Source of the DNA: Lepidurus packardi
Taxonomy: Eukaryota > Arthropoda > Branchiopoda > Notostraca > Triopsidae
Direction: 5' to 3'
Length of the DNA: 64,000 nucleotides
NCBI GenBank assembly: GCA_023053545.1
Contig: JAKZAN010000001.1
Span: 3,244,565-3,308,564, forward strand
Shown here piece after piece: positions 535 through 62,869 of this stretch. The notes under the pieces were generated by a model. That model was not told where the DNA came from. It did not search any database and saw only the letters and a program-made list of their open reading frames with translations. Made by a program: the position numbers and the translations under genes. Positions within the stretch are counted from its first letter, which is position 1. Every line of letters begins with the position of its first letter.

Positions 535-857
535 AAGAAGGGACGCGTATGTCCGAAGAAAACCTGGCAACCCGCGGCAAGTTGGAACAACTGCGAATGG
601 TCATGGAAGAACGAAGAGCACGCAGACGCGCTCGTCGCGAAGCACGTGTTTCCCCTTATGCGTGGTCCGGCTCAGCTAAAGCTGAACCAGCCGCTGCGGC
701 GGCGGCAACAGCCGCCATATTGCACCCAGCTGTTTCTCCTACCTTAGGCGACGTTCCTTGCAACGAAGACACGCCCATGGACACGTCAGACGCGCCCGCT
801 GCTTCCGCTGCCACCGACGTTGCTCGTGAATTAAACGCCGAAGCTGTTGTAGCTTGA
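535..857 (+). CDS. MIDN: Midnolin-like protein, last coding exon
   Basis: The exon opens after a pyrimidine-rich acceptor ending TTTAG at 534 and runs to TGA at 855-857; earlier exons lie upstream of the window. It encodes about 107 residues: a strongly basic helix (MVMEERRARRRARREAR, then SPYAW), an alanine-rich acidic linker, and the C-terminal end AEAVVA. The arginine-rich helix followed by PY-aromatic and a terminal VVA matches what I recall of the end of vertebrate midnolin. In that family the C-terminal helix docks on the proteasome, and the protein feeds short-lived nuclear proteins to it without ubiquitin. The ubiquitin-like and Catch regions are not in view, so the call rests on the tail alone. 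AATAAA stands at 902-907, 45 nt after the stop, so a short 3' UTR is possible. Confidence 0.6.
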
Positions 858-2335
858 AAAGCTAAGAGAAAAAACAAAGAGAGACAGAAAATTTAAAAGA
901 AAATAAACCACTACTCCTTTGAATGCAGGGATAGACAGACAAGGAGAAAAGAGAAGAAAAGGTAATTTTCTTAGAGTAGGACGAAAGTGTTTTTTTTGGT
1001 AGTAAAATGGCCAGTGATTTGGCAAGCATTCTGTCGTCTTTCTTATTGTCCGCTTGTTAGGGCCACTCATACGTAAACAGAAAAGATAAACAAACCTTTG
1101 CTATGGTCCGAGGTTGAAACTTATTCAAGTTCGGAAGTGTTAAACAAGACTTGCGTTTTTTGAGTTTTACGTATGGAGAGAGAGAGAAAGAGTTAGCAAG
1201 TTTTTTTTTGACAAGGTAACTTTTTGAGCCAAGTTATTTAGTTGTACATTGCTTTCTACATCCCACCGTTAATTTGTTTAAGAAGAAGGTAAAATGATTT
1301 TATGTTCTGGTCTCCGTTGCTCAACTCAACAGAAAAAAACACAACTTCGTTTTCATTTAACTTATATTAAATTCCCATAGCCTCCTTCCTTTACACGAAT
1401 AATTTTTATAGTTTGTTTTTACTGGACTTTTTTGTTCGAAAATCAAAGTGTTCAAATTTCATAGCAGCTGCCACCTTCACCCGATCGTACGGATTTTTCG
1501 TTAACTTCAACACTTAAAAATACCCTTTGCACTTCATTAAAAGGAAAAAGAAGATAAAAAAGTGAGTTCATTTGTTTAGTTTTTTAGTAGCCAGTCCTCA
1601 GGCGACGTTTGTTAGAAACAAATGTAATGGGCTCTCTTGCGTATATTTGCGAGTTCTGTATACTGTTGAAAAAAAAAAAATTTGGTTGTTAAGAAGGCGG
1701 GAAAAAAATGGGTTTCCATGTTGTTGCGCCTAGTTTATGATGACAGCAAAAACGGGAAACAGAAAGTTTTGGTGTTATAGCAAGATGTATACAGCAACTT
1801 GACAACGTGTTTATGTATGGGATTTATGCATTGTGGAAAAAATCAGTGTATTGTTGGTTAACTGGCAAAGTTTTTTGGAATGATGTTAAGCTTGCTACTA
1901 GAGAGAAAACAAAAGAAAGGAAAAGATTTCTTCGGAGTTTGGCTGCTTGGTTCCAACGTTGTTTAGCGTCCTTGTCACAAGTTGGTTATGTTTGGCTTTG
2001 GAGAATTACAAGGAGGTTCATTCCAATTCAGAACTGCACTGGCTCAAATTTATTATATTTTTACACAAACTACAAGTGCTCCAAGCTCTTGAACTCAGCA
2101 CAGTTATGGTCTCACTGCATGTAAGTTACCGAACATATAAAGAAAGCCTTTTACAGTGGCTTGGACTTGCTACAAGCGATTGTGTTGACCGCTGACGTCA
2201 TACTGGGTGGACTCAACAAAATAGCTACAGGACGCTTCTTGTTTTGATTAGCTAACAAAGCTTCTTTGAACTGTTCAAGTTCGCTTCTCGGATCTAGCGT
2301 GGGCAGTTTAGGGCACTAGAAAAAGCAGATCACAA
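858..2335. other. Convergent 3' UTR/intergenic stretch between midnolin-like gene and OMA1
   Basis: The two genes face each other tail to tail here. The stretch is AT-rich, with homopurine and GA-rich tracts (for example near 1168-1190) and no coding frame that looks conserved. I see no transposon ends or RNA gene. Confidence 0.5.
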
Positions 2336-3861
2336 TTAGAAATAAAATTGCTGTGGGGGTAAATTTTTAGTCATTTTTGGGTACGCTACTTGGCATTGTT
2401 CCCTGAAGGACATGGCATCTGGAAGCAAGTCTTCCAGGTGTTTTTGACGCTTTTCGTGAGCAGGATGCGTTGATAGGAACTCGATGCCAACCGCACCTTC
2501 AATGTCGGATAAGATTGACATTTTGGACCAAAAGGCACTTGCAACTCGTACATCCACGCACGCCTTTTAGAAGAAAGCGTTCCGTTAAGAATGGTTTGTA
2601 TCACTTTCGTGACGTAATAGCTGTTTATTTTACAAAAACATTACCTTTGCTGCCATCTGTAGGCCAACTTCATCAGCTTCATTTTCCAATTCTCGACTGT
2701 ACGGGAAATGGAAAACTGCCTGAGCGAGATATGCAGCTGTAGCGTAACCCAGAAAAGCTAACAGATCGCTGGGCAATACTGCCCAAGCCAAGCCCACCAG
2801 AAATACTTTGAAAGTTTCAATGAGCTGATCACGTGTTGCGTGCTCGGCTGCGTGTCCTAGAACGGCGTGAGCTATCTCATGGCCTAACACTATTCCGAGC
2901 TCGTCGTCTGTTTTGCAGAGGTTTAACATGCCGGTAAACACGAAAATATTTCCGTTCTATAAACCGCAGCAGTTGATAAATTTAAGGCCTTTCTAGTGTG
3001 GTTTTAGGGATTTTTACTGGCAAGACGAAAGCGTTGATAGAAGCTGACTCTTCCAGGACGGTGATGGACCATTGCTTGTTATAAATCTGAGGCCAGTCTT
3101 GACAACTGGCCAGGAGTCTTTGGGCAACGCGAGCAACCCGCTGGTAGGCTAGATGTTCTACATCGAGTATACGGTCGCGAAATTCTTCGCACATCTGGGT
3201 AACTGTATACTTTAACTTACAGAACTTGTAAAAAAAGATTGAATTTACCGCATCGAACTCGATTTCAGCCAAGTGACGGATTTGTTCGCCGGTAAATATC
3301 ACAAAACGCCTTCTTTTAGTGATGGGTGTGTCTTCTTGGTGGGTTTTATAATAGTAGTATCCAAAACCAGTTCCGAACAATGTCATACCTTAAAAAAATA
3401 GATAAATAAATAGAAGAAAACAGAATCACAAATAAAAATAAATTTTGAAGAAGGAAAGAAAATGTTAGAGGATATTGTTAAGATTGTGAAGTGTAATTAC
3501 CTGCAAAATTGTTGCGATGACGGAATAATCGACGTATGTACTGGCGTTTTTGTTCTGTCGGTAGGCTTTGCCACCATTTCCGGAAATTTCGACCCACCAG
3601 AAAGGCTAATCCTTTGGCCAGTGGTCGCAAAAGGAGGAGGAGAATCGGAGGCACAGCGTTGCTTGGAGGAGTTGTATGCAAACCTCTTGATAAGGAATTG
3701 GATGTCGTGGGCTTTAAATTTGAACTGGTGAAGTTCTTAAGTGCTAAATTGCCTGGTGAACTTGTGAAGTTCTTAGGTGCTAAATGGCCTTCATTTCTGT
3801 ACGGAAAGGATTTTTGGGTTCGTAAACTCCTTACAAGTGATGCTAGAAATTTTAAGGACAT
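2336..3861 (-). CDS. OMA1: Mitochondrial metalloendopeptidase OMA1
   Basis: Four exons on the minus strand (3861-3501, 3388-3018, 2956-2645, 2563-2336) join in frame to 423 aa; human OMA1 has about 524. It is an M48-type zinc protease of the inner mitochondrial membrane that cleaves OPA1 and DELE1 under stress. The N-terminal 100 residues are basic and serine-rich, like a mitochondrial presequence. A hydrophobic segment (TLFGTGFGYYYY) near residue 125 starts exon 2. The zinc motif is HEIAH in LGHEIAHAVLGH (exon 3), and the third ligand region is ELENEADEVG. Exon 4 carries ACVDVRVASAFW and LSTHPAHEKR, which match the family C-terminus. The splice joins VLP/NGNIF and AAK/ACVD reproduce conserved protein sequence, which supports the boundaries. 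Confidence 0.95.
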
Positions 3862-5200
3862 TACGACTTTTTGGAAATATTAATATCAAAGACGTTTGTA
3901 GAGAAAGATTGAGGCAAAAGCTAGTCACTCATACTGATTAATAAAACAAAGAGACCTAGCCTGAGTCCTGCAGATAACACCCTTTTGCTAAAAAATATCG
4001 TAATGAAGTTTAACCAAACGGGTCTACTTTGGTATCTAAGATGGGTTCCTGTCCTATAAAATTGCGTAGTCCTTCGGAGATAATCCTCCTAGAAAATTTT
4101 CGGGCATAATAAGGAAGAATAATTCATGGAAACATGGTCATTCACTGAGACTAGTGTTGTAAATAATCAACATGTAGAACGAAAGTTATAGAATTAAACA
4201 TAAATGAAGCCTAACACTTAGGACCTATATTGCAAATATGTAGGATATGTGTCGAGAGATTGTGATACGATATTATAATATAAATGTATCAATATGATTA
4301 ATTTCCCTCCACTAAGTTTTTCAAAATATTGACGATTAAAAATGTAACAACGTCTATATTCTCTCGAGAAACCTCACTAGATGACGTCTCAAGCATTTTC
4401 TAAATGAAACTTTTGTATGTATCTCTCGGGTAGGTGTCAGAAATTCCTGAATTATTTAAAAAAACTAAACCAATAGTATTTTCCAGAATCCTCTCACCAG
4501 GAACCAGTCTGCCTCTTTTAGGGCTTGCTTACATGCAGTGCTTTGGATGCTTGGTTTGTTGTTCCTTTTTTGTGTGTTTTGACCTCGGGTTTCGGCTTTG
4601 TTTGTATTAAAGTGTGTGACCGCTCAACTCACGTAACCGCGCAGCTGGCTTGCGAACGGGTTTATGTCTGCGGCATACCAGTTCAATGCTGAAGTAGCTT
4701 GTTTTGTAGTGAATTTCCGTAGTTTTTCTCAGCATTGTGCCATTTTTCGTAATGGAATATCAACGACAGTGAGTCGTTACAGACATACAAGCAAAGCCTT
4801 CAAAGGATGGCATAGATAGTGAAAGACTGATTGTATGACATCACTACTAAAGCCATTAAAAAACAAAAACAAATATAGTATAAACCTAAAATACATACGG
4901 GATTCCAAGAATAAATATAAATAGGGTTTCCATAGTTAAAGAAATCTTGCTATAAGTGATAAATTTAAATATATACTTACCCAGCACACAGCCATGCAAG
5001 ACTTGCAAGACCATGCATCCACACTAACACATCCACACTTTTTTTTTTAAAGATCAATTGACCGACGTAGGCTTGCGCCTGTTGTCGGATTTTTTATTTG
5101 TTAATCCATTTGTACACCTTTATTTTCTTGTGTTATTTATACATTATCACAACAATTAGGGTCGGTGGAGTACCTTTCTAGTTGGTTTCTATGATTAGTT
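3862..5200. other. Intergenic DNA upstream of OMA1
   Basis: AT-rich sequence containing the presumed OMA1 promoter. I see no conserved coding frame, RNA gene or clear repeat ends. Confidence 0.4.
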
Positions 5201-5210
5201 GTATAATTGG

Positions 5211-5605
5211 TTAGTAATTTTTTTTTGACATTTCACTCATTTGTTGTGCAAAAAGAGCTAGTGCGTTGAAAGCTTTTGGGTTGGATAGGACTTCTTTTGC
5301 GTTGAAATGAATCCTCCGAAGGCTTAACTGTCGCAGTAGTTTTGCGCTATCTTTGTTTAATTTCGTGCAATGTAACAGTAGGTGGGGACGTTTTGTTTTG
5401 TCCGTGTTTGGCAAGAGCATATATTGTAGTCCATCTTTTTATGCGCTTTAGATATTCTAGACATGGAAAATGGAATCTGCGGATTCTGGTTGTGTGTTCC
5501 ATGCTTGAGCTGCCAGCTCTCGACTTTGTTCTGAACAGGATGTGTCATTTTCTTTTGGGGGGATTTCCTGGAGTCGACCATACATTCCAGTTTCTTGCAG
5601 CGTAA
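5211..5605 (-). pseudogene. Decayed non-LTR retrotransposon C-terminal fragment
   Basis: Minus-strand frames here give HLLLHCTKLNKDSAKLL, then a stretch like the extreme C-terminus of non-LTR retrotransposon polymerases, where a C..C..H..C-type knuckle is followed by an aliphatic helix (KAFNALALFAQQM, stop at 5211). The part just upstream (5357-5605) reads in other frames and resembles the region after an RNase H domain, so it must hold frameshifts. No reverse-transcriptase motif is visible. It is probably an old, broken insertion; the assignment is tentative. Confidence 0.4.
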
Positions 5606-5777
5606 TAATTTAGCTGTTTTGGTGAGTGCTAATTTTACATGGGGTAGTCCAGTTTCTATTTCTAGGGCCTACGTAGGTGTTGTTTTGAGTGCTTCAGTGA
5701 CGATTAACATTACTTTTCTATATATTTGCGATAAAGGGCTTAGGTTCGAGTTGCTGATAGTGCATCATGCTGGATAT

Positions 5778-5832
5778 GCATGGTTCGAACCATGCGGGTA
5801 ACGCTTGCTACCTGGCGTACAGCGAACCCGCA
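5778..5832. repeat. 18-bp perfect palindrome followed by a hairpin
   Basis: GCATGGTTCGAACCATGC at 5778-5795 is a perfect palindrome. Overlapping it, TGCGGGTAACGCT (5793-5805) pairs with AGCGAACCCGCA (5821-5832) around a 15-nt loop. The GGTTCGAA core resembles a tRNA B box, but no cloverleaf can be built. Confidence 0.5.
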
Positions 5833-6699
5833 AGTCACGGCGCGAAAGAGAAGTAATTTTTTGTGATTGAGTTTTTTACAAACTTGTTTCAACATACAGG
5901 GTACCGAATGTTCTGAAGCAGAGCCCTCGCTCAAGAAGTTAGACCCTTTAACTTTTTTTTCTGCAGCGAACAGGTATACAGTTTCGGGTTTTACGGTTAA
6001 ACAGAGTTAAAGAGAGTCCAACACAGAGTCAAACACAGTCAAACGGAGTCAAAGGTTAAAATGTTAAACTTAGTTAAACTGTTAAAAAGTTTTTTTTAAC
6101 TGAACGGTCAGGGTGTATGAAGTTAAACACAACTTGCGAACACGTTGGTAGTTCCTTGTGGCTTACGTTGTTAAAAGCACCACTGATATTACTTTAACTT
6201 TTTTCATATGCAAATGTACATACAATACAGAATGCAATATTTATTATATGTATATTATAAATATGTATTTATTAAGTATGTCCTAGAAATCTTAAAGTTC
6301 TCCCAGCCGTGTACGCATTGTACCAAACCATCCAAAATAAAAGCTACCGGCGAAACCATACTAAGCAGAACAAGCCGGATGGCTCTCCTTTCCGGGACTC
6401 ATAGTGTAAATCCCGCTCGTCAGGTTCGATTCCAATAGGCTCAGTTTTCTCTAAGTTCTGTTTCTGCATAGCAAGCGACATATTACAAGGGTAATATTCA
6501 ATGCGATTGTCATTTTGAATAACAGAATTTAACAGAACACCGTTTAAAACGACGGAAAAACTGCGATGAAAACATCCCACATTAGTACAGTGGGTGATCG
6601 GTTAACGAACAGATCGGATATCGAATTCCCATTCGATATATCAAATATTGTAGCGAACCGACACCAGGCAGTGCAAGAGGTACTGCAAGGCAGTCTGGT

Positions 6700-7178: not shown

Positions 7179-7680
7179 CAACACGTTCTCCGGATTTAGT
7201 TACATACGTACGTAAAGTGTCCCTGGGTCAAACATGACACTAGTGTGTCACTGGCCAACAATGAATTCTTCTTTTTTCAGCTAGTGGAGTGAAAGAAAAT
7301 TCAAATTTTAGCGACTCTCATCAACGAAAATTGATGAGAATCGTGAAGCTAACCTAATCTAACCAAACTTAATAACCTAAGCTAACCTAACTTAATAACC
7401 TAAGCTAACCTAACCTAATCAAACCTAAACTAACCTAAACTAACCTAACCTAAACCTAACCTAACCTAAACCTAACCTAACCTAACCTATCCTAACCTAT
7501 CCTAACCTAACCTAACCTATCCTAACTTAACCTAACCTAAACTAATGTATTTACAATCCAACTACCATTTTTGAATTCGAGTGACACCCGTTTGTCATTC
7601 GTTTTCCGAGAACGTTTTGAAACCATAATACACACTAGTGTCATTTTTATCTCGGATTTCCGAAACTGGAGAACCTGTTG
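7179..7680. mobile_element. hAT-like MITE carrying a TTAGG/CCTAA array, copy A
   Basis: A 502-bp element with 13-bp inverted ends, CAACACGTTCTCC on the left and CAACAGGTTCTCC read from the right. It is flanked by the 8-bp duplication GAGCGGAG (7171-7178 and 7681-7688). An 8-bp TSD with CA...TG ends suits the hAT superfamily. The interior is non-coding: a short hairpin (CTCATCAACG/CGTTGATGAG type, near 7317-7343), then about 195 bp of CCTAA repeats with variants (about 7350-7545), then unique sequence. The same element is present in opposite orientation at 29801-30316. Confidence 0.8.
7350..7545 (+). repeat. Interstitial CCTAA (TTAGG) telomere-like array
   Basis: Dozens of CCTAA units, some altered to CCTAT, ACTAA or CTTAA, lie inside the hAT-like MITE. 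TTAGG is the usual arthropod telomere repeat. The array is bounded by element sequence on both sides, so it moved with the element and is not a chromosome end. Confidence 0.85.
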
Positions 7681-8250: not shown

Positions 8251-8549
8251 AAAAGCAGCAAACCTCATAAAAGCGGGTTGAGGCATGTTGTAGGAGGTGT
8301 CTTAAAAGCAGCCAACCGCATAAGCGGGTTCAGCCGTGTTGAAGGACGTGTCTAAAAGCAGTAAACGCATAAGCGTCCTAACCTAACTTAACCTAACCTA
8401 ACCTGACCAGCCTAATCTAACTTAACCTATCCTAACGTAGCCTAAAATGCCTCGCCTGGGGCGAACTAAGGCTGATATGGTTTGCTGCGGATCGCTGGGC
8501 TACCCTCCTAACATGGCTGAACCCGCTTTTATGAGTTTTGCTGCTTTCT
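8251..8549. mobile_element. Foldback repeat with AAAAGCAG units and a central CCTAA tract
   Basis: Two and a half tandem units of about 50 bp, each starting AAAAGCAGYAAAC, stand at 8251-8303, 8304-8353 and 8354-8380. An inverted copy of the unit lies at about 8500-8549. Between them is a CCTAA tract (about 8377-8452). This is another palindromic, non-coding element with telomere-like repeats in its centre. It ends less than 100 bp before the FYCO1 start codon. Confidence 0.55.
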
Positions 8550-16153: not shown

Positions 16154-17148
16154 GATTTTTTTGTGTCAGATGGCAAACCATTTTCCATTAATAAGGAACA
16201 GTTGTTAAGTTTTGGATGTGATGCTGATTTCGTGACCGGTTTGGAAGAGAGTTTGCTTGGTAACAAAGTCGATAGCCATGATCCAGAAAATAAAGAAGCC
16301 GAAATTCAAGTAAATATATATATATATATTTTCGAGGAGCCTACTAGAATTGTATTCTCTTATAGGCTGAAGTATGGACCCTAAAGTCTTCAGCAAGTCG
16401 CGACAGCGAGGCGACTGAAGCATTGGTCGAGCTACTAAAACAACAGGAAATGAAGTGTGCTTTGAAGAGCAAAGGGAAAGCGGGTCGGGCTTTATACCCA
16501 AAACTTGCGGCGGAGTTGCAAAAAAAGGGCTTTAATCTTGATCTTAATCCAAGTATCAAAGTGAAAGACAAGTGGTCAAACCTAAAAAGATCTTTTAATG
16601 CTTGGAACGACAATGCGAAGAAAACGGGTAGCAAGGCCATAAAGCAGCCTAGATTTTATAACGAAATATTTTATATCATTGGTGACGATGATGTAGTCAG
16701 CCCAAAGGTACTGTTCGATACAAGAAAAACATTTGATGTGCAAGCAGCCAAAACTTTGCTTGAGTCCTCAAAAAAACCCCCAGAAATATGTATTGACGAG
16801 GATATCTGGGAAAGTGAGAATTCCATCACAAGAACGCCCTCTCCAAGTGTGACCAATCAAGATTCTAAGAAAGGGCCTAGGAAGCAGCTGCTGAAAGAAA
16901 CCTTAAGTAAAATGGACATGCAGACAGAGAAGGAAGAATCGTGGAAAGAGGAAATACGAGAGTTTCGTAATAAAATGGTGAATGACCTGCAAGCCAAGAC
17001 GGCTCAAAATGATAGCATGCTAAAGCTGATGGAGCGGTTGGTATCAGTTGAAGAAGAAAGAAACAACAGGGAAAAGGGAAGGTTATCTGACAACAAGGAA
17101 AAGCAGGGAAGAAGGCGACATCACAGCAGTGATGAAGATATGTGTTGA
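16154..17148 (+). CDS. Harbinger-associated Myb/SANT-like DNA-binding protein, copy 1
   Basis: Two exons are clear: 16154-16309 and 16366-17148, with a 56-bp intron that is largely a TA microsatellite. They encode about 312 aa. The SANT/Myb-like trihelix spans the splice junction: VWTLKSSASRD, EALVELLKQQ, then KVKDKWSNLKRSFNAW and YNEIFYIIG. The C-terminal half is charged and probably coiled (MDMQTEKEESWKEEI). In PIF/Harbinger elements this second protein helps carry the transposase into the nucleus and onto the ends. The 5' exon is uncertain: ATGs at 16023/16029 give MEQVVVNLDELHF up to a donor at 16108, but the phase does not match exon 2 in that frame, while the ATG at 16081 does match. 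The product is otherwise intact, unlike copy 2. Confidence 0.8.
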
Positions 17149-17368
17149 TAATTTAATCTTTTCAGTTTGGCAAATTTTTCGTTTCCTTATCTAATTGCTT
17201 TTCAATGCTTATGTCCATAATCAGTTGTTCGTGTTTGATCTAAAGGCTTTGATAAATAATCCTGCCAAAAATAAGTTGATTATACTTCTGAATTTGATCT
17301 GGATTTCTGTATTTTACTGTCTCGAGTACACAAGGTTTTTTTAAAACAAAATTATGGGACCTGTCCGA

Positions 17369-18598
17369 TTACAGTAAAATTTGTGCTATGCGATCACGCT
17401 TCTCTCTCGCTTCTCCGTCTTGACGGTTCGGATTCACATACACGTCTTCTACACCGTTCACTATTGCATCAATATTCACCTCACAAAAAGCGCCTTCGTT
17501 TTGCATACACAAATTGTGTAACGTACAACAAGCACCTATAACATAGGGGATGAACTCTATTTTTGTATCGACAAGAAGAAGCTTGCGAAAGCGTGCTTTT
17601 AAAAGGCCAAAAGTATGTTCCACGGTAATCCTTGTTCGTGAATGACAGTTGTTGTAATGGAGTTCTCTTCTTGTCGAGCTGCTTTTGTAGGGTGTCATAA
17701 CCCAGGGTAAAAGAGGATAAGCTGAGTCACCCAGTACATGGAAACGTGAATCAGGAAAATTAGATAATGGGTTTTCTGAAGTTTGTCTAAAAATTTCTGA
17801 ATTGCGGAAAACTCGAGCGTCGTGGGCCGCACCTGGAAAGCCAATGAATACATCCGTAAATGTTTTGTCGGGAGAACATATGGCCTGCAGAATCATTGAA
17901 TATCCACACTTCCGATTTCTGTAACTATTCTGTTGGTGGGCTGGACATATTATGTCTATATGGGCTCCATCAATCGCACCCACGACGTTCGGGAAGTATG
18001 CCTTCTTTTCAAATTTGGTAGCATAAATTTCACATTCGGCTAATGAAGTGGGCCATTTAATGAAACGAGAATTCACTGCACAAATCATAATACACAACCG
18101 ATGAACACAGGAATGTACTGAACTCTGTGATACACCGAACAAATTTGCAATACTACGCATTGATTCTCTGTTTCCTAAGTACCACAGTGTAATGAGGAGA
18201 GCTTTACGTAATCGAATTGGTTTCTTGCCAGCTCTAACTACTTCTCTTTCTTCTTCATCGGCCTCCATGTAGCTTATCTCGGCCGGGAAAAACTCTTTCA
18301 ACAGTTCTCGTTCGTTTTTTAAAAAATCAAGCGTTAAGGTGAAAGTTTGTCTTTTTAATCGGAAATGACGTCGAAAATCAGCGTCATTCAAGCTTTCCAC
18401 TAATACTTCGGCGAAATTTTCAACTTTATGATGAACTTCGCTTGCTTCCTCTAACCACTTCTGTAATGCTCGCTTATAATTGTAACCGCTAACATTTTCA
18501 CTGCTTTCAAGTTCGAGAAAGATCTGACTTAAGAAAGCTGACCCTGCCAATATACTTCGATAGCAGTTAATGACTAAAAGTAATGTTTTTATGTCCAT
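17369..18598 (-). CDS. PIF/Harbinger DDE transposase, copy 1
   Basis: A single uninterrupted 409-aa frame. The N-terminal part is helical. A helix-turn-helix lies near residues 145-172 (SMRSIANLFGVSQSSVHSCV). The DDE nuclease core follows, with the acidic triad visible as D210 in GAIDGAHIDI, D291 in VLGDSAYPL and E327 in RITVEHTFGLLKARFRKL. The signature GFPGAAHDARVFRNS lies between the first two. This is the normal size and motif order for Harbinger transposases (the HARBI1 family in domesticated form). The start ATG lies just inside the right end of the element. No stops or frameshifts are seen, so the copy may be active. It faces the Myb-like gene tail to tail. Confidence 0.95.
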   Translation of the reverse strand: MDIKTLLLVINCYRSILAGSAFLSQIFLELESSENVSGYNYKRALQKWLEEASEVHHKVENFAEVLVESLNDADFRRHFRLKRQTFTLTLDFLKNERELLKEFFPAEISYMEADEEEREVVRAGKKPIRLRKALLITLWYLGNRESMRSIANLFGVSQSSVHSCVHRLCIMICAVNSRFIKWPTSLAECEIYATKFEKKAYFPNVVGAIDGAHIDIICPAHQQNSYRNRKCGYSMILQAICSPDKTFTDVFIGFPGAAHDARVFRNSEIFRQTSENPLSNFPDSRFHVLGDSAYPLLPWVMTPYKSSSTRRELHYNNCHSRTRITVEHTFGLLKARFRKLLLVDTKIEFIPYVIGACCTLHNLCMQNEGAFCEVNIDAIVNGVEDVYVNPNRQDGEAREKRDRIAQILL

Positions 18599-18800
18599 TC
18601 TTCGTGAGATATATGTTTACGTTTAAAATAGGGATGTTTACAAAACTGACGGGAGCGAATGCTACAAACCGTTTTATTTGGTATGACGCGTCCGAGCAGC
18701 GCGTCAACGCTCGTCCTAAATAAAACGAATTTAGCGCCTGAAGCGAAGGTTTCTCACTGACGCGTTAGGACGCGACTGGAGCAAATAAAACGCAGCTCTA

Positions 18801-19065: not shown

Positions 19066-19791
19066 CCACAGTATAGAGGTTTCACAGTATGGTAACAGGG
19101 GTATCTTCCAATGTTAAGGTTTTCTGACGACCTTCTCGGTCCCCCGAGTAATATTCAGGTAAAAGGCCAGAAAATGAAAGGGTACATTCGCAAACCTCCC
19201 AGTGCAGTTCAAAAAAGGTCACGACGGTTTACAAAGCGCGTAATTTAAATCTATTGCTTTAAACTATGTGAGCTTAAAATAAAAGATGAATTAACTAGGT
19301 CAAAGCACAACACGTATACACATTATAGACTATTTCGCGTTACCCAGGTTGCACCACGAGGAGGCAGTCTATTTTGCAACCCATACATAGGTGTTTTATA
19401 GTATACAGGTTTAACCCCATATACTATAAAATACCCATGTATATTAATGTCTATATGTGTTGTTATGACTATTTATGTCTATATACGAGTTATCCATTAC
19501 ATTGGTACTTTCAAAATCGCGCAATGCTAGTCGAATCTTACGTCAGCCCCAAACTCCCTCGAGAGAAAGGTCACCAGTCCCCCGTTTTGTGAATGTTTTG
19601 TTCTCTTTTCGAACCCTTCTTATAGTAGATTTGGAATGCCTACTTCTGGGGTAGGATGGGCAAGTCTGTGAATCCATCCCTCCTATGTTCCTTGTTACCC
19701 CCACATCCTATTGAGACCGAGAAAATCGTGTTAATCCCTTTACATTGGAAGATACCCCCAGTTACCATACTGTGAAACCTTTATACTGTGA
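19066..19791. mobile_element. MITE with 6-bp TSD, copy 1
   Basis: A 726-bp non-coding element. Its terminal inverted repeats are about 54 bp long and start CCACAGTATAGAGGTTT; the right end has one changed terminal base. It is flanked by TCAAAA on both sides (19060-19065 and 19792-19797). It shares its interior with the outer parts of the composite element at 26747-30795 and keeps the uninterrupted site (ACCCATACATAGG, about 19378-19390) that is occupied by a hAT-like MITE in the other copy. Confidence 0.8.
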
Positions 19792-26740: not shown

Positions 26741-27063
26741 TTAGGGCCACAGTATAGAGGTTTACACAGTATGGTAACAGGGGTATCTTCCAATGTTAAA
26801 GGGCAATAGCCACCAAAAAACAACTTTGTCTTATAAAATGGAGTAGAAAATCTAGTTTACAGTTTTATGTGTCTTTTTATCATACGCGAAAATATAACTG
26901 CGATATTTCAGAACATGAGAAATCTAAAATTCAAATCGGGCATTTTTGCCATTGGCCCAACGCGGTCACGTGGCGCCGTGACGTCAATAACGGGAGCCAC
27001 GGCACCTTGGCGCACCACAGACCTGCGTTTCGTGTATACAAAGTGATAGACAAAGCGAGTAAA

Positions 27064-27844
27064 ATGGCTGAAGGTTTCGACGAGAGCGTTTATTTTGATA
27101 GAAGCCCCTTTGTAGAGGATGAAGGGACGGAATTGGACCAGGCTTTTGTCATTCCTGTGCCAATAGTTGCGTGTGCTCAGGCCTACCAGTTTGAGCCATA
27201 TAGGGCTCAAAGGTTGCCAATGCCAAACCCACGTGCCAGTGTTAGTGTTTCAACATCACTTGTAGCTGCAGATTCTGGACCTGGAGATTCTGGAGAGTCT
27301 GAAGTTTCTGACTGGTAACTTATTATAAAACATCACGTGCTTCTAACTGTACAGTATGTTGTAGGTGTGATTGTGGGAAGTGCGTTAGGATGCCTCTTCC
27401 TGTCAACAATTTCTGTTGCAGGAGAAATCGTCACTTTTTAGCCAAAATCGACGCTAATAACGAGGACTTTCCACATCAGCAGGCAAAGTGCTATACAGAA
27501 ATGGAAGCTATTCCTCATTTGCTGCATCCGGCAGTCCTGGAATATGTATACCTTAGCTGGTGTACTTACGCTAGTGCCCGGAAAAAACATTTGCCGTTTG
27601 CTGATGATGTAGATCCCAACAGGTATTTCATAAAGTATGGCTAATCAAGCTTTGAAGTAAAATTTTATGTGTTAGGAGGAACAGGTTTAGCGCCTACCGT
27701 GCTGTTACCACGAACGTGTATAAGATACTGGGAGCGAGGACGAGAAAGCCCTTGCCAGCATGTGTTGAACATTTCATCAAAAGCAAGTTTCCAGATCCAA
27801 CTGGCCAGTATGTCGGATACTCGGAGTGGATGCCTGACGCCTGA
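27064..27844 (+). CDS. Cysteine-rich protein resembling the P2X7 receptor intracellular (ballast) domain
   Basis: Three exons (27064-27314, 27365-27622, 27676-27844) with introns of 50 and 53 bp close in frame to 225 aa. An N-terminal linker contains AYQFEPYRAQRLP and an acidic SGESEVSDW. A cysteine cluster then begins at W84 (WCDCGKCVRMP, NNFCCRR), followed by the helical part (HPAVLEYVYLSWCTYAS). The end, SAYRAVTTNVYKILGA, then RKPLPACVEHFIKSKFP and TGQYVGY, resembles the zinc-binding cytoplasmic domain that vertebrate P2X7 channels carry after their last membrane helix and that occurs as a stand-alone protein in invertebrates. There is no channel part here: the N-terminus is soluble. Its location inside a transposon is the notable feature. 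Function unknown; zinc and nucleotide binding are inferred from the family. Confidence 0.75.
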
Positions 27845-28310
27845 TAACGATGCGTGACGCCTTTCGACCCTGGCCTTGCCCGAGCCCTTTTCAGGGCTAA
27901 GGTCATATGAAATCAACAAAAAATTCCGTTTCATAAGCTAAGCTTTTCATTTATTTTCAGGGCTAAAAATCATTCGTAAAAATCCCCTCATTCTTGGTCA
28001 GATGACAAAAAAAAAAGAAAGAAACCGTTTCCCAAGCTAAGCTTTTTGTTACTCATTATTTTGCTTCGGTTTTTTGAAGCGAGTAACTTTTTCGTCCACA
28101 GCTTTCCGCTTATCCGGATGATAATACGTGCTGCACATGGGTGGCGGAACTCGCGATCTGCCTTCCTTCGCGATCTGAGTTCGCAACTGACTCTCGAAAA
28201 CCATAAATTTGCGTTCTTTGTTTCTTTGATCAAAAGGTGGAATTGGAGAGCTAGCTTGTTCCCTAGAAGTAAATGCCTTTATATAGAATACATTCTTGGA
28301 TCAATATAAT

Positions 28311-29274
28311 TTACTCTTTCACGGGTGAAATGTCCGATTCCGTGTCCTCGTATTCGTCGTCCGGTTCAAAATCTACATCGTCGTCAAAGGGATAGCCCTG
28401 TTCAGTTAGGGTACTATTCAGGTTTTCTGAGGTAAAGGTACTGCTTCTTGGAAGCGGGTTCTTTTCCTACATATAGTTTCTCCAATTTAGAACGTTTGAT
28501 ATGCATTGGTATCCTATTTACCGGCAAAAGTAGCCCGTCCTCAGGAAACTGACAAGAGAAGTCTTGGGTCGTCATACCGGAGAACTGACAAGAAAAGTCT
28601 GCCATTTCAACTCCGGAAAATTGACAAGAGAAATCTTTCATGTTAGCTTCGGCCAAAGTCACTTCTTCTTCATTGTTTTCCAGATCAATTGCGGGTGTGG
28701 ACTCCGAAAAAACTAAGTCAGGCACCGAGTCTGACGTACAAGTGCTTGTGGCAACTGTTGGGACAGAACTTGTACTTTCGCCTTGAAGCAGCAATTCTTG
28801 GATAATCTAAAACGTGCATATGTCATTACCCTATTTTGTCTTCAAACGTTGGAGTATATTTACGTTATGGCGTTGTCTTTTCTCAATAGCTGAGGTTTTC
28901 CGAGGTTTGGGTGGACTTCGCAGCCCAGACACAGTAGCCGGCCTATCAAACTTAGTAGGGATAGCGGTTGGCAACAAACTCCTACCACGCCTTTTAGCCC
29001 GAAATCCCATTGCTAACTGTCGATCAACACTACCGTCAAATTGATCTTCGGTGAAGTGATCACCACAGAGAGACGCCGATTTACATGTGGCTTCCACAAA
29101 ATCAGCCCTAGTCCTTTGCACTTGCAACACCCATTGCCGTCTTCTTTCTGCGTCTTTTGGGAATGTATATATCCCTACACCAGATCTTCCACTGTTATTG
29201 CAACCGTAAGCAACACAATAGTTACCACTATGGTTATTTGTCTTTGATGGCAGATTACTTGCCATTTTTTCCAC
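28311..29274 (-). CDS. THAP-domain protein of the Kolobok-like element
   Basis: Exon 1 is 29274-28864 and exon 2 starts at 28806 after a 57-bp intron. The N-terminal THAP zinc finger is complete: C20 and C25 in YCVAYGCNNSG, C70 and H73 in SLCGDHF, P39 and W48 in between, and an AIPT box near residue 107. THAP fingers bind DNA, and in transposases they recognise element ends. Exon 2 is acidic and holds three copies of DFSCQF spaced 12 residues apart. The frame stops at 28414. The sequence directly below it (28413-28311) encodes a strongly acidic tail (DDDVDFEPDDEYEDTESD, stop at 28311) in another frame, so a one-base frameshift or an unseen splice is likely. No nuclease core follows the finger. 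Confidence 0.75.
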
Positions 29275-29800
29275 TAAAAATCACACAGCACAGAGGAAGC
29301 CTACACAAAGCCAGTGTATACGAAGCGCCCGTAAGCCACAACTCTAGCGCTGTTCCCGTTATTGACGTCACGGTTCTAGTGGCGGGAAAATTGCCAAAAC
29401 TTCGCAAGCCAATAACTCGGAAACGGTTAGTCGGAAAAATTTGAAACAAATTTTCCCGTTCTTAGAATAATGTGTACAATAAGAATCCATCCAAATATCA
29501 ATACGCTATACTCGTGGCTATTGCCCTTTAAGGTTTTCTGAGGACCTTCTCGGTCCCCAGAGTAATATTCAGCTAAAAGGCCAGAAGACGAAAGGGTACA
29601 TTCGCAAACCTCCCAGTGCAGTTCAAAAAAGGTCACAACGGTTTACAAAGCGCGTAATTTAAATCTATTGCTTTAAACTATGTGAGCTTAAAATAAAAGA
29701 TGAATTAACTAGGCCATAGCACAACACGTATACACATTCTAGACTATTTCGCGTTACCCAGGTTGCACCACGAGGAGGCAGTCTATTTTGCAACCCATAC

Positions 29801-30316
29801 CAACAGGTTCTCCAGTTTCGGAAATCCGAGATAAAAATGACACTAATGTGTATTATGGTTTCAAAACGTTCTCGGAAAACGAATGACAAACGGGTGTCAC
29901 TCGAATTCAAAAATGGTAGTTGGATTGTAAATACATTAGTTTAGGTTAGGTTAGGTTAAGTTAGGATAGGCTAGGTTAGGTTAAGTTAGGATAGGTTAGG
30001 TTAGGTTTAGGTTAGGTTAGGTTAGTTTAGGTTTGATTAGGTTAGTTTAGGTTTGATTAGCTTAGGTTAGCTTAGGTTAGGTTATTAAGTTAGGTTAGCT
30101 TAGGTTAGGTTATTAAGTTAGGTTAGATTAGGTTAGATTATATTAGCTTCACGATTCTCATCAATTTTCGTTGATGAGAGTCGCTAAAATTTTAATTTTC
30201 TTTCACTCCACTAGCTGAAAAAAGAAGAATTCATTGTTGGCCTATGACACACTAGTGTCACGTTTGACCCAGGGACACTTTTCGTACGTATGTAACTAAA
30301 TCCGGAGAACGTGTTG
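29801..30316. mobile_element. hAT-like MITE carrying a TTAGG array, copy B
   Basis: A 516-bp copy of the element at 7179-7680, in opposite orientation. Its ends are CAACAGGTTCTCC and, inverted, GGAGAACGTGTTG. It is flanked by the 8-bp duplication ACCCATAC (29793-29800 and 30317-30324). The empty site is preserved in the MITE at 19066-19791, which proves the insertion and its exact limits. The TTAGG array is at about 29940-30150. Confidence 0.88.
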
Positions 30317-55352: not shown

Positions 55353-56143
55353 CTCCTTGCATAGCTAATATGTATGGAAGCCCTGAGAGGACAAAACTCG
55401 GGAACCGCAGAAAGTGACTCGGGAACAGCAGAAAGTACACTTATGGGAACATATTGACTTTCGGGAACACGGGAACCAGTTTTCGGAACATGGGAACCAG
55501 TTTTGGGAACACTATCGGGAACACGGGAACATTATCGGGAACACGGGAACATATCGCTGTTTTCGGAACATATCGATACCTTCGGATGCAAGGTCGCTTT
55601 CACACTGTCATACAACTAGGCCCCCCCCCCCCCCCCCCAAGACCATAAAACCAATTTATCTTCTTCCACTAGCTTGCGCCCCCTTGTATGACAGTGTGAA
55701 AGCGACCTTGCATCCGAAGATATCGATATGTTCCGAAAACAGCGATATGTTCCCGTGTTCCCGATAATGTTCCCGTGTTCCCGATAATGTTCCCGTGTTC
55801 CCGATAGTGTTCCCAAAACTGGTTCCCATGTTCCCAAGTTCCCAAAAGTTTTGGGAACTAGGGAACATGAGAACCAGTTTTGGCAAAACTGGTTCCCATG
55901 TTCCGAAAACTGGTTCCCGTGTTCCCGAAAGTCAATATGTTCCCATAAGTGTACTTTCTGCTGTTCCCGAGTCACTTTCTGCGGTTCCCGAGTTTTGTCC
56001 TCTCAGGGCTTCCATAGGTTCCCGTGTTCCCGAAAGTCAATATGTTCCCATAAGTGTACTTTCTGCTGTTCCCGAGTCACTTTCTGCGGTTCCCGAGTTT
56101 TGTCCTCTCAGGGCTTCCATAAATATGCTCCTTGCATAGCTAA
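55353..56143. mobile_element. GTTCCC-rich foldback element with 16-bp flanking direct repeats
   Basis: The left arm (about 55373-55617) and right arm (about 55682-56121) are inverted copies ending TATGGAAGCCCTGAGAGG. The arms consist largely of GTTCCC/GGGAAC words, including tandem 20-bp units GTTCCCGTGTTCCCGATAAT (two in the left arm, three in the right). The right arm also holds a 105-bp tandem duplication (55912-56016 and 56017-56121). The spacer starts with 18 C. CTCCTTGCATAGCTAA flanks the element directly at 55353-55368 and 56128-56143. Open frames through it only reflect the repeat and are not genes. Confidence 0.75.
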
Positions 56144-57986: not shown

Positions 57987-59217
57987 ATGGACATAAAAAC
58001 ATTACTTTTAGTCATTAACTGCTATCGAAGTATATTGGCAGGGTCAGCTTTCTTAAGTCAGATCTTTCTCGAACTTGAAAGCAGTGAAAATGTTAGCGGT
58101 TACAATTATAAGCGAGCATTACAGAAGTGGTTAGAGGAAGCAAGCGAAGTTCATTATAAAGTTGAAAATTTCGCCGAAGTATTAGTGGAAAGCTTGAATG
58201 ACGCTGATTTTCGACGTCATTTCCGATTAAAAAGACAAACTTTCACCTTAACGCTTGATTTTTTAAAAAACGAACGAGAACTGTTGAAAAGAGTTTTTCC
58301 CGGCCGAGGTAAGCTACATGGAGGCCGATGAAGAAGAAAGAGAAGTAGTTAGAGCTGGCAAGAAACCAATTCGATTACGTAAAGCTCTCCTCATTACACT
58401 GTGGTACTTAGGAAACAGAGAATCAATGCGTAGTATTGCAAATTTGTTCGGTGTAGCACAGAGTTCAGTACATTCCTGTGTTCATCGGTTGTGTATTATG
58501 ATTTGTGCAGTGAGTTCTCGTTTCATTAAATGGCCCACTTCATTAGCCGAATGTGAAATGTATGCTACCAAATTTGAAAAGAAGGCATACTTCCCGAACG
58601 TCGTGGGTGCGATTGATGGAGCCCATATAGACATAATATGTCCAGCCCACCAACAGAATAGTTACAGAAATCGGAAGTGTGGATATTCAATGATTCTGCA
58701 GGCCATATGTTCTCCCGACAAAACATTTACGGATGTATTCATTGGCTTTCCAGGTGCGGCCCACGACGCTCGAGTTTTCCGCAATTCAGAAATTTTTAGA
58801 CAAACTTCAGAAAACCCATTATCTAATTTTCCTGATTCACGTTTCCATGTACTGGGTGACTCAGCTTATCCTCTTTTACCCTGGGTTATGACACCCTACA
58901 AAAGCAGCTCGACAAGAAGAGAACTCCATTACAACAACTGTCATTCACGAACAAGGATTACCGTGGAACATACTTTTGGCCTTTTAAAAGCACGCTTTCG
59001 CAAGCTTCTTCTTGTCGATACAAAAATAGAGTTCATCCCCTATGTTATAGGTGCTTGTTGTACGTTACACAATTTGTGTATGCAAAACGAAGGCGCTTTT
59101 TGTGAGGTGAATATTGATGCAATAGTGAACGGTGTAGAAGACGTGTATGTGAATCCGAACCGTCAAGACGGAGAAGCGAGAGAGAAGCGTGATCGCATAG
59201 CACAAATTTTACTGTAA
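57987..59217 (+). pseudogene. Harbinger transposase, copy 2, frameshifted
   Basis: Almost identical to the transposase at 17369-18598 but with one extra A in the A-run at 58287-58290, after residue 101. The frame then stops at 58331. The rest, including the full DDE core (GAIDGAHIDI, VLGDSAYPL, VEHTFGLLKARF), is open from 58318 to 59217, where an ATG could start a 299-aa piece that still contains the helix-turn-helix. Few other substitutions separate it from copy 1. Confidence 0.92.
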
Positions 59218-59449
59218 TCGGACAGGTCCCATAATTTTGTTTTAAAAAAACCTTGTGTACTCGAGACAGTAAAATACAGAAATCCAGATCAAATTCAGAA
59301 GTATAATCAACTTATTTTTGGCAGGATTATTTATCAAAGCCTTTAGATCAAACACGAACAACTGATTATGGACATAAGCATTGAAAAGCAATTAGATCAG
59401 GAAACGAAAAATTTGCCAAACTGAAAAGATTAAATTATCAACACATATC

Positions 59450-60429
59450 TTCATCACTGCTGTGATGTCGCTTTCTTCCCTGCTTTTCCTTGTTGTCAGA
59501 TAACCTTCCCTTTTCCCTGTTGTTTCTTTCTTCTTCAACTGATACCAACCGCTCCATCAGCTTTAGCATGCTATCATTTTGAGCCGTCTTGGCTTGCAGG
59601 TCATTCACCATTTTATTACGAAACTCTCGTATTTCCTCTTTTCACGATTCTTCCTTCTCTGTCTGCATGTCCATTTTACTTAAGGTTTCTTTCAGCAGCT
59701 GCTTCCTAGGCCCTTTCTTAGAATCTTGATTGGTCACACTTGGAGAGGGCGTTCTTGTGATGGAATTCACACTTTCCCAGGTATCCTCGTCAATACATAT
59801 TTCTGGGGGTTTTTTTGAGGACTCAAGCAAAGTTTTGGCTGCTTGCACATCAAATGTTTTTTTTGCATCGAACAGTACCTTTGGGCTGACTACTTCATCG
59901 TCACCAATGATATAAAATATTTCGTTATAAAATCTAGGCTGCTTTATGGCCTTGCTACCCGTTTTCTTCGCATTGTCGTTCCAAGCATTAAAAGATCTTT
60001 TTAGGTCTGACCACTTGTCTTTCACTTTGATACTTGGATTAAGACCAAGATTAAAGCCCTTTTTTTGCAACTCCGCCGCAAGTTTTGGGTATAAAGCTCG
60101 ACCCGCTTTCCCTTTGCTCTTCAAAGCACACTTCATTTCCTGTTGTTTTAGTAGCTCGACCAATGCTTCAGTCGCCTCGCTGTCGCGACTTGCTGAAGAC
60201 TTTAGGGTCCATACTTCAGCCTATAAGAGAATACAATTCTAGTAGGCTCCTCGAAAATATATATATATATATATATATTTACTTGAATTTCGGCTTCTTT
60301 ATTTTCTGGATCATGGCTATCGACTTTGTTACCAAGCAAACTCTCTTCCAAACCGGTCACGAAATCAGCATCACATCCAAAACTTAACAACTGTTCCTTA
60401 TTAATTGAAAATGGTTTGCCATCTGACAC
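59450..60429 (-). pseudogene. Harbinger Myb/SANT-like protein, copy 2, truncated by a nonsense codon
   Basis: Matches the copy 1 protein exon for exon, including the TA-repeat intron (here three TA units longer, about 60218-60284). The tryptophan codon in KEESWKEEI is TGA here (59642-59644), which removes about 75 C-terminal residues. The SANT-like part is retained. Confidence 0.9.
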
Positions 60430-61494: not shown

Positions 61495-62869
61495 ATGGGT
61501 TGTTCCTTCAGCTCACACGACAAGGAAACAGAGCGTTCCAAGAAAATTGACCGACAATTGCGCATCGATGGCGAACGGCAATCTAAAGAAGTGAAACTGC
61601 TCTTGTTGGGAGCTGGCGAGTCTGGCAAAAGTACCATAGTCAAACAAATGAAGATCATCCACGAAACCGGATACTCCAAAGAAGAATGTGAGCAGTATCG
61701 CCCTGTTGTTTACAGCAATACCATTCAAAGTCTCATGGCCATCATCAGAGCCATGGGACAACTGCGAATTCAGTTTGCTGACATGACCGCGAGAACAGTT
61801 AAGTTAAATAAGAAACTTTTTAATACTATAATGCTTAGAACATGTGAAAAATTGAGGAACTTCGATTAGCGAAAACGTCCTGTGATATTGTTTTCTAATT
61901 ATGTGTCTGATTAGGATGATGGTCGCCTGTTTTTCACATTGGCCAGTGCAGCTGATGAAGGCGTGTTAACTGGAGAGTTAGCACAAGTAATGAAGAGACT
62001 ATGGATGGATGGTGGCGTCCAGCATTGCTTCTCGCGTTCCAGAGAATACCAACTTAACGACTCGGCTGCTTATTACCTGAACGCTTTGGATCGCATCTCG
62101 GCACCCCATTACGTACCAACTCAGCAAGACGTGCTCCGTACGAGGGTCAAAACGACGGGTATTGTAGAAACCCAGTTTACCTTTAAGGATCTGCATTTTA
62201 AGATGTTTGATGTCGGGGGTCAGCGCTCGGAACGCAAAAAGTGGATTCATTGTTTCGAGGGAGTTACAGCCATCATCTTTTGTGTGGCTTTATCAGGTAA
62301 TGTTTGTTTATTATTATTTCTTTACAATTTTCAGGGATGTGTTCATAATACTTTTCACATTTCAGGTCTACTTGTTTAATATTTTAAATATTTTTTTTTT
62401 TGCGAAAAAAGGTTACGATTTGGTGCTAGCAGAGGATGAGGAAATGAATCGAATGATTGAGTCGATGAAACTCTTTGACTCCATCTGCAATAACAAGTGG
62501 TTTGTGGAAACTTCCATCATTCTTTTCCTCAACAAAAAAGATCTCTTTGAAGAGAAAATTACGAAGTCGCCACTTACCATCTGTTTCCCAGAATATAAAG
62601 GTAAAGCTCAGAAATTCTCTCAAATTTCCTTATAGACTTCGTAAGCCATCTCCGTTTAATTTTCTTTTCGTTATAAAGGATCCAACACTTATGAAGAGGC
62701 TGCAGCCTACATTCAAATGAACTTCGAAAGCTTGAACAAACGAAGGGACCAAAAAGAGATTTACACGCACTTTACTTGCGCCACCGATACGAACAACATC
62801 CAGTTTGTCTTCGACGCCGTCACTGACGTAATCATCAAGAACAATTTGAAAGATTGTGGACTCTTTTAA
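61495..62869 (+). CDS. GNAI: Heterotrimeric G protein alpha subunit, Gi class
   Basis: Four exons (61495-61797, 61915-62296, 62412-62600, 62679-62869) close in frame to 354 aa, the same length as human Gi1. It couples membrane receptors to inhibition of adenylyl cyclase and, with GoLoco proteins, to spindle orientation. MGCSFSS gives the N-myristoylation glycine and palmitoylation cysteine. Motifs: [19 protein letters not shown] (P-loop), [15 protein letters not shown] (switch I with the arginine finger), [13 protein letters not shown] (switch II), FLNKKDLF and TCATDT. The end [10 protein letters not shown] is the Gi tail; Go would end GCGLY. The cysteine four from the end is the pertussis-toxin target in this family. 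The intron 2 acceptor (GCGAAAAAAG) is weak. AATAAA stands at 62903-62908. Confidence 0.97.

Follow-up and report, generated by a model that had tools for sequence, protein, structure and literature searches.

The transposon at positions 26800-29527 of the window (the whole stretch of DNA analyzed here: 64,000 nucleotides of Lepidurus packardi contig JAKZAN010000001.1, positions 3,244,565 to 3,308,564, forward strand) is very probably a young, non-autonomous, internal-deletion derivative of a KolX-bearing (Kol0) Kolobok DNA transposon, judging from sequence comparison. Its proposed membership in Kol0 is taken from KolX, the ends, and the layout and not from a DDE tree. The predicted THAP protein on its minus strand is the transposase of that transposon with the core deleted in frame.

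Kojima and Bao reportedly described a Kol0 lineage of Kolobok with KolX in 2022. According to PMC9587614, this lineage encodes a transposase together with KolX, which has the cytoplasmic ballast fold of P2X7 and seven conserved cysteines, and P2X7 originated when a P2X4-like gene fused with KolX; the transposon route to the P2X7 tail that the earlier note on this DNA put forward has thus been in print since 2022.

Ends and target site

Sequence inspection gave an intact insertion of 2,728 bp with perfect 14-bp terminal inverted repeats (TIRs) and the following outer features.

26796..26799, no strand: left TTAA target site duplication (single TTAA at the empty site)
26800..26813, plus strand: left TIR AGGGCAATAGCCAC (exact 14-bp match)
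29514..29527, minus strand: right TIR, inverted AGGGCAATAGCCAC (exact 14-bp match)
29528..29531, no strand: right TTAA target site duplication (empty-site comparison)
19066..19386, plus strand: related repeat with the empty target site (97% over 322 nt)

The 14-bp inverted ends that the earlier note had read are exact, and together with the TTAA they form 18-bp perfect inverted arms. Pairs of TIR matches (at most 2 mismatches) appeared in 4 of 100 shuffles of the window. In the genome-wide search with these ends that had been called for, the exact 14-mer occurred 43 + 43 times, against 0 + 0 for a reversed control, and a chance TIR pair was rejected on that zero; TTAA plus 12 TIR bases (at most 1 mismatch) occurred 95 + 93 times, against 1 + 1. 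The flanks of the element, when joined, match 19066-19386 (97% over 322 nt) with a gapless junction and one TTAA, as expected from the clean empty site claimed near 19066. TTAA was found in 38 of 40 end rows, among which some sites appear twice (exceptions, L003 and L007), and the element begins and ends with AG...CT, the 5'-RR/YY-3' form. A TTAA target and RR/YY ends are part of the Kolobok definition in PMC9587614.

Interspersed degenerate TTAGG arrays lie at 29936-30140, 7349-7545, and 8377-8445 of the window, one of them adjoining the element's host repeat, and TTAGG repeats reach the last base of contig C3. Elsewhere in the window, 16366-18616 and 58288-60220 are two copies of a two-gene element with facing open frames of 415 and 309 aa, which we take to be a Myb/MADF-like protein and a HARBI1-like DDE protein of a probable PIF/Harbinger element. 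Two perfectly identical 105-bp tandem units stand at 55912-56121 amid GGTTCCCG-type repeats. Open frames at 61915-62635 carry a signature peptide, presumably that of a G-protein alpha subunit gene.

KolX gene

The plus-strand gene was modeled from DNA alone, with splice sites picked to keep the frame; the predicted product has 225 aa, and the introns are GT-AG.

27064..27314, plus strand: exon 1 of KolX, the P2X7 ballast protein (splice model)
27365..27622, plus strand: KolX exon 2, with WCDCGKC, CC, and cysteine 126 (splice model, Pfam, cysteine positions)
27676..27844, plus strand: KolX exon 3, with LPACVEHFIKSKFPDPTGQYVGY and the stop (splice model, Pfam, PDB comparison)

The earlier note had described a P2X7-type, cysteine-rich protein of 225 aa, and the HMM search it proposed bore this out: the product matches Pfam P2RX7_C in two stretches (E, 2.7e-9; 37.7 bits; cut-off, 23.5), the sole Pfam match at E up to 1. 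A P2X channel domain was not found in the 225-aa protein, and a P2X7 receptor or receptor fragment was rejected for that reason. PDB chains of P2X7 match weakly (E, 0.012, 0.016, and 0.024). Nine cysteines are present, of which C85, C87, C90, C101, C102, C126, and C199 fit, by eye, the three P2X7 cysteine clusters of PMC7016195, with a 102-126 spacing wider than printed there for P2X7. The second gene of the Kol0 lineage, KolX with its ballast domain and seven cysteines, is therefore present, the assignment to clusters being by eye. A protein search returned one relative at an E value of 0.001 or below (Pomacea, 27%). GDP binding, as in P2X7, is not claimed for KolX, since, by eye, of the five pocket residues R546 is identical and another has K in place of R.

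Truncated transposase and its full-length relative

On the minus strand, the splice model gave four exons and a deletion junction.

28864..29265, minus strand: truncated transposase exon 1, THAP domain (splice model, Pfam)
28471..28806, minus strand: exon 2, DFSCQFSG repeats (splice model; same exon in L046)
28315..28397, minus strand: exon 3, acidic (splice model)
28049..28262, minus strand: last exon, in which a KFMVFESQLRT stretch runs on in frame into the C-terminal tail (splice model, L046 comparison)
28166..28177, no strand: deletion junction with short filler, where about 1.6 kb including the DDE core present in L046 is missing (copy comparison)

The predicted protein has 344 aa, with a complete THAP domain (Pfam, 52.4 bits across the full profile), a middle part that is repetitive and acidic, and a short tail. 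The full THAP finger reported by the earlier note was thus upheld by the HMM search it asked for; in the splice model, however, the THAP protein extends beyond the single 144-aa open reading frame to 344 aa and is a truncated transposase, not the product of a separate gene.

The full-length relative L046 (C16:1235957-1240307; 4,351 bp) has ends and body in common with the window copy and matches it over element positions 1-1367 and 1378-2728, with about 1.6 kb extra between. Its KolX gene is convergent with an uninterrupted 804-aa THAP-plus-DDE transposase, predicted to have nine exons and eight introns of 45-73 nt (splice sites picked by eye). The core motifs are GDGRADSPGH, TDRH...DVWH, and VECFNS, so that a THAP and DDD/E transposase with C/DxxH between the second D and the last E, a Kolobok feature, is found in L046. 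Uncharacterized proteins of Ptychodera and Priapulus align with this core at all three catalytic places and a Bufo protein through the second; Xenopus LOC779912, in which Pfam places a THAP domain, aligns with the transposase without the first motif. No relative of the DDE core returned by the protein search carries a Kolobok label. In the DDE exons, no Pfam transposase family passes its cut-off (Mutator comes up at E 0.018, in family B only), and the identity of these exons was taken from protein relatives and alignment. Together with the TTAA and the RR/YY ends, the L046 transposase agrees with the Kolobok identity first suggested for the element.

An autonomous Kolobok has its own complete DDE transposase; the window copy has none, and because its DDE core is deleted, it was filed as a non-autonomous derivative. 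Since the last exon joins the start of the core to the C-terminal tail in frame, the copy is an internal-deletion derivative. Among junction types that retain some of the tail exon, 3 of 3 preserve the frame, for which chance would give 1 in 27 if the types were independent, which they may not be. In L017, one copy of the third type, the frame is lost.

A piggyBac-type element, from the other TTAA superfamily, that had acquired a THAP gene would share the TTAA target, yet the ends here are 5'-AG (Kolobok-like RR), the KolX cysteines and the L046 transposase also speak against it, and no piggyBac transposase domain (Pfam, E up to 1) was found in the 2 window proteins or the 4 DDE pieces scanned; we regard this origin as extremely improbable and retain the Kolobok reading.

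Copies in the genome and a second family

A search of the 108.6-Mb genome with the element (best 40 of 171 candidates scored) gave at least five 100% copies with a length of exactly 2,728 bp, the window copy included (scores, 4920 for three and 4916 for two), one 97% copy, and longer and shorter relatives. The flanks of the five 2,728-bp copies differ, and all five sit at TTAA.

The DDE exon of family A has four near-full matches (97-99%), all in paired elements with KolX exon 2. At C16:1547981, a 69% DDE match is adjoined by a 65% KolX match; diverged partial DDE matches at C6:10092043, C2:7423130, and C2:7664816 (56-72%) have no KolX match nearby.

The second family (B) is represented by L050 (C4:338000-345500; element, 543-6118; 5.58 kb), which has TTAA, ends AGGGGGAG, TIRs of about 0.5 kb, and KolX and THAP-plus-DDE genes in the same layout as in L046. 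A genome Pfam search, for which the KolX exons of family A score too low one by one, returned 7 matches to P2RX7_C, all of the L050 family; in 7 of 7, a THAP match lies downstream on the opposite strand and faces it. One of the seven loci, L045, is a deletion derivative lacking the DDE stretch. Two Kolobok-type families of this genome thus combine the ballast gene, a THAP domain, and a DDE transposase between TTAA sites, the recurrence that the earlier note had wanted checked.

Among copies with the window's own type of ends (subfamily A1; the L046 subfamily is A2), an intact donor was not found: neither of the two with a DDE exon looks intact. L047 (C5) has a frame-breaking length change in the second-last exon, its exon-2 end is unmapped, and its KolX gene holds a nested insertion; the C8 copy has no THAP match. 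The nested insertion in L047 (456-6110, in KolX exon 1) has open frames of 359, 421, and 450 aa, the latter two with no Pfam match better than E 0.17, and carries element positions 399-405 on both sides, as a 7-bp target duplication would give.

What derivatives keep

Searches with 200-nt A2 ends (best 40 of 88 and 40 of 83 candidates scored, so that copy numbers are lower bounds) found at least 25 left and at least 27 right A2 ends (96-100%) and at least 11 + 11 A1 ends (84% left; 89-91% right). The paired copies of these two youngest subfamilies number 35 (at least 24 A2 and at least 11 A1), and the derivative counts cover a minority of the 188 TIR ends. A THAP match is present in 34 of the 35, KolX exon 2 in 11, and a DDE exon in 4. 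A local cluster of A2 derivatives lies at C1:4585109-4781565; at least three of its members, near 4.69-4.78 Mb (L026, L027, and L029), share one flank and therefore represent a duplicated segment and not separate insertions.

In 11 mapped A2 junction types, right breakpoints lie 660-1624 and left breakpoints 214-465 from the ends, none within THAP exon 1; the probability of sparing this exon is 0.25 under a uniform null and 0.016 under a null bounded at 1624. L057 (931 bp) has the same TIRs and no match to the element body, and copies without THAP therefore exist. As a lead, THAP may be retained as a protein (a transposase competitor), as cis sequence, or partly by chance; a need in cis would look alike.

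KolX is dispensable in cis because 24 of the 35 paired copies lack its exon 2. The spread of these copies, like the three diverged DDE matches with no KolX match nearby, is what one would see if the ballast gene had been a host gene, unrelated to transposition, that a TTAA transposon picked up as cargo. On the KolX matches examined, a set that leaves aside some such as C1:8817714, C3:2816272, and C4:10809987, such a capture is nonetheless very unlikely, as KolX is positioned and oriented alike in two families whose ends differ, accompanies the 69% DDE match at C16:1547981, and is the published second gene of Kol0 (PMC9587614). The earlier note had proposed that the ballast module travels as cargo or works in transposition; stray cargo does not fit a known second gene, and any role in transposition would not be one required in cis. 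KolX as a regular gene of the transposon is the reading kept here.

Subterminal inverted repeat

Within the TIRs, a second inverted repeat was found.

26976..26995, plus strand: left subterminal inverted repeat CCGTGACGTCAATAACGGGA (20 bp, 100%), a candidate transposase/THAP site or shared promoter element
29354..29373, minus strand: right subterminal inverted repeat, a perfect copy of 26976-26995 (inverted-repeat comparison)

The longest inverted word common to both ends was 11 bp in 300 shuffles of these ends, against the real 20 bp. Perfect 17-20-bp repeats of their own type are present in 26 of the 28 A1 or A2 copies for which both ends are known (the decayed ones are L017 and L032), and the repeat is changed identically in both arms, reading TGACGT-CAATAACGGGA in A1 and TGACGT-AGATAGTGGAG in A2.

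Between A1 and A2, identity per 100 nt is 92-100% in KolX exons 2-3 and in transposase exons 2-4, against 63-96% over the THAP exon and right end and 77-92% in the leftmost 400 nt; the first 12 TIR bases are identical, and the drop is a gradient with no step. THAP exon 1 has a dS of 0.17 and a dN of 0.10, against 0 synonymous changes and 1 nonsynonymous change in 166 codons of transposase exons 2-4. This contrast suggests exchange or conversion between the subfamilies and not selection alone.

The 11 positions after TGACGT were compared between left and right arms in 7 copies (S3, S4, S5, L053, L061, and one copy each for A1 and A2); L058 (left arm lost), L057 (ends homologous over about 100 nt), and L064 and L066 (no second end found) were left out. 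True pairs sum to 58 identities, which no other of the 5,040 pairings reaches (mean, 34.7), and no such signal appeared at 13 further offsets (lowest count, 348 of 5,040). Because A1 and A2 had suggested the idea, the test was rerun without both, giving 36 identities, a sum reached by 1 of 120 pairings. Arm-to-arm matches out of 11 were 11 for A1, 11 for A2, 10 for S3, 9 for S4, 8 for L053, 6 for L061, and 3 for S5 (indel). S3, S4, S5, L053, and L061 are decayed, with stops in the THAP frame; the apparent link between word and THAP sequence is drawn from A1 versus A2, the sole clean THAP exons.

There is a substantial minority chance that the repeat is a shared promoter element of both genes and not a transposase site: it ends 68 nt upstream of one start codon and 88 nt upstream of the other, and its TGACGT, which we take to be a CRE/ATF half site, is nearly constant while the remainder varies. 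A host factor alone, however, would not be expected to shift 11 variable positions in step at both ends per subfamily. The two roles may coincide in an autoregulated promoter.

The open-access literature yielded no earlier account of a Kolobok subterminal inverted repeat, and the main text of PMC9587614 does not treat subterminal words. What we did not find in print is the apparent pattern of an 11-nt word that is alike at both ends, differs by subfamily, and shifts along with the THAP exon against a near-identical body. Preferring the transposase-site reading, we tentatively propose, a little short of even confidence, that in Kolobok THAP reads the subterminal word and that new subfamilies would swap both end regions and the THAP exon, keeping the catalytic core, KolX exons 2-3, and the cleavage TIR; such a swap would free full-length copies from short THAP-bearing derivatives at their ends.

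Proposed mechanism

In the full-length relative, KolX reads inward from the left end and the THAP-plus-DDE transposase inward from the right end. As the sequences show, internal deletion removed the DDE core, leaving KolX whole and reducing the transposase to the 344-aa THAP-plus-tail protein. The element was most probably cut at its AGGG TIR ends and reinserted at TTAA by transposase that full-length copies provided in trans. The THAP domain may recognize the subterminal inverted repeat, about 155-180 bp within each end, the AGGG TIR serving as the cleavage end, and KolX would assist in trans as an accessory protein. The truncated THAP protein could sit at transposon ends in competition with active transposase, like KP of P elements. 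In P elements, the transposase binds internal sites, and copies that are non-autonomous can encode KP, a repressor of 207 aa (PMC7776569); the Galileo THAP domain binds about 70 bp inside the end (PMC3688188). Both cases are parallels and not proof.

Comparison with known systems and significance

As described in PMC9587614, Kol0 elements (Kolobok-1_XT group) resemble the present one in TTAA, RR/YY ends, and a DDD/E transposase with a separate ballast-fold protein of seven cysteines; the window copy differs in lacking the DDE core and in its host, which has TTAGG, presumably the arthropod type of repeat, at a chromosome end. Xenopus XKol and T2-MITE (PMC6004289) are alike in TTAA, AG-type ends, and a transposase with THAP, DDE, and H2CH, yet T2-MITEs are described there as short non-autonomous elements, whereas a THAP match is present here in 34 of 35 paired copies. 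The Drosophila P element with KP (PMC7776569) shares a THAP transposase, internal binding sites off the TIR, and deleted copies encoding short repressors; it belongs to another superfamily and, unlike the window element, has an 8-bp target duplication, a GTP cofactor, and no KolX. Invertebrate ZCD/ballast proteins (Rump et al. 2020, PMC7016195) show the same cysteine motif in short channel-less proteins, among them a reported Ixodes protein with THAP (printed TAHP) and ballast domains; they are treated there as genes, and the main text does not mention transposons.

A ballast gene in full-length and near-identical dispersed Kolobok copies, with empty and filled sites, fits the published domestication of the P2X7 tail from KolX. 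The A1/A2 series offers natural material on the joint change of a THAP transposase and its binding site, and the THAP-bearing derivatives are a case for asking about repressors beyond the P-element family. With copies that have KolX and copies that lack it, the same genome may serve to ask whether KolX has a role in transposition.
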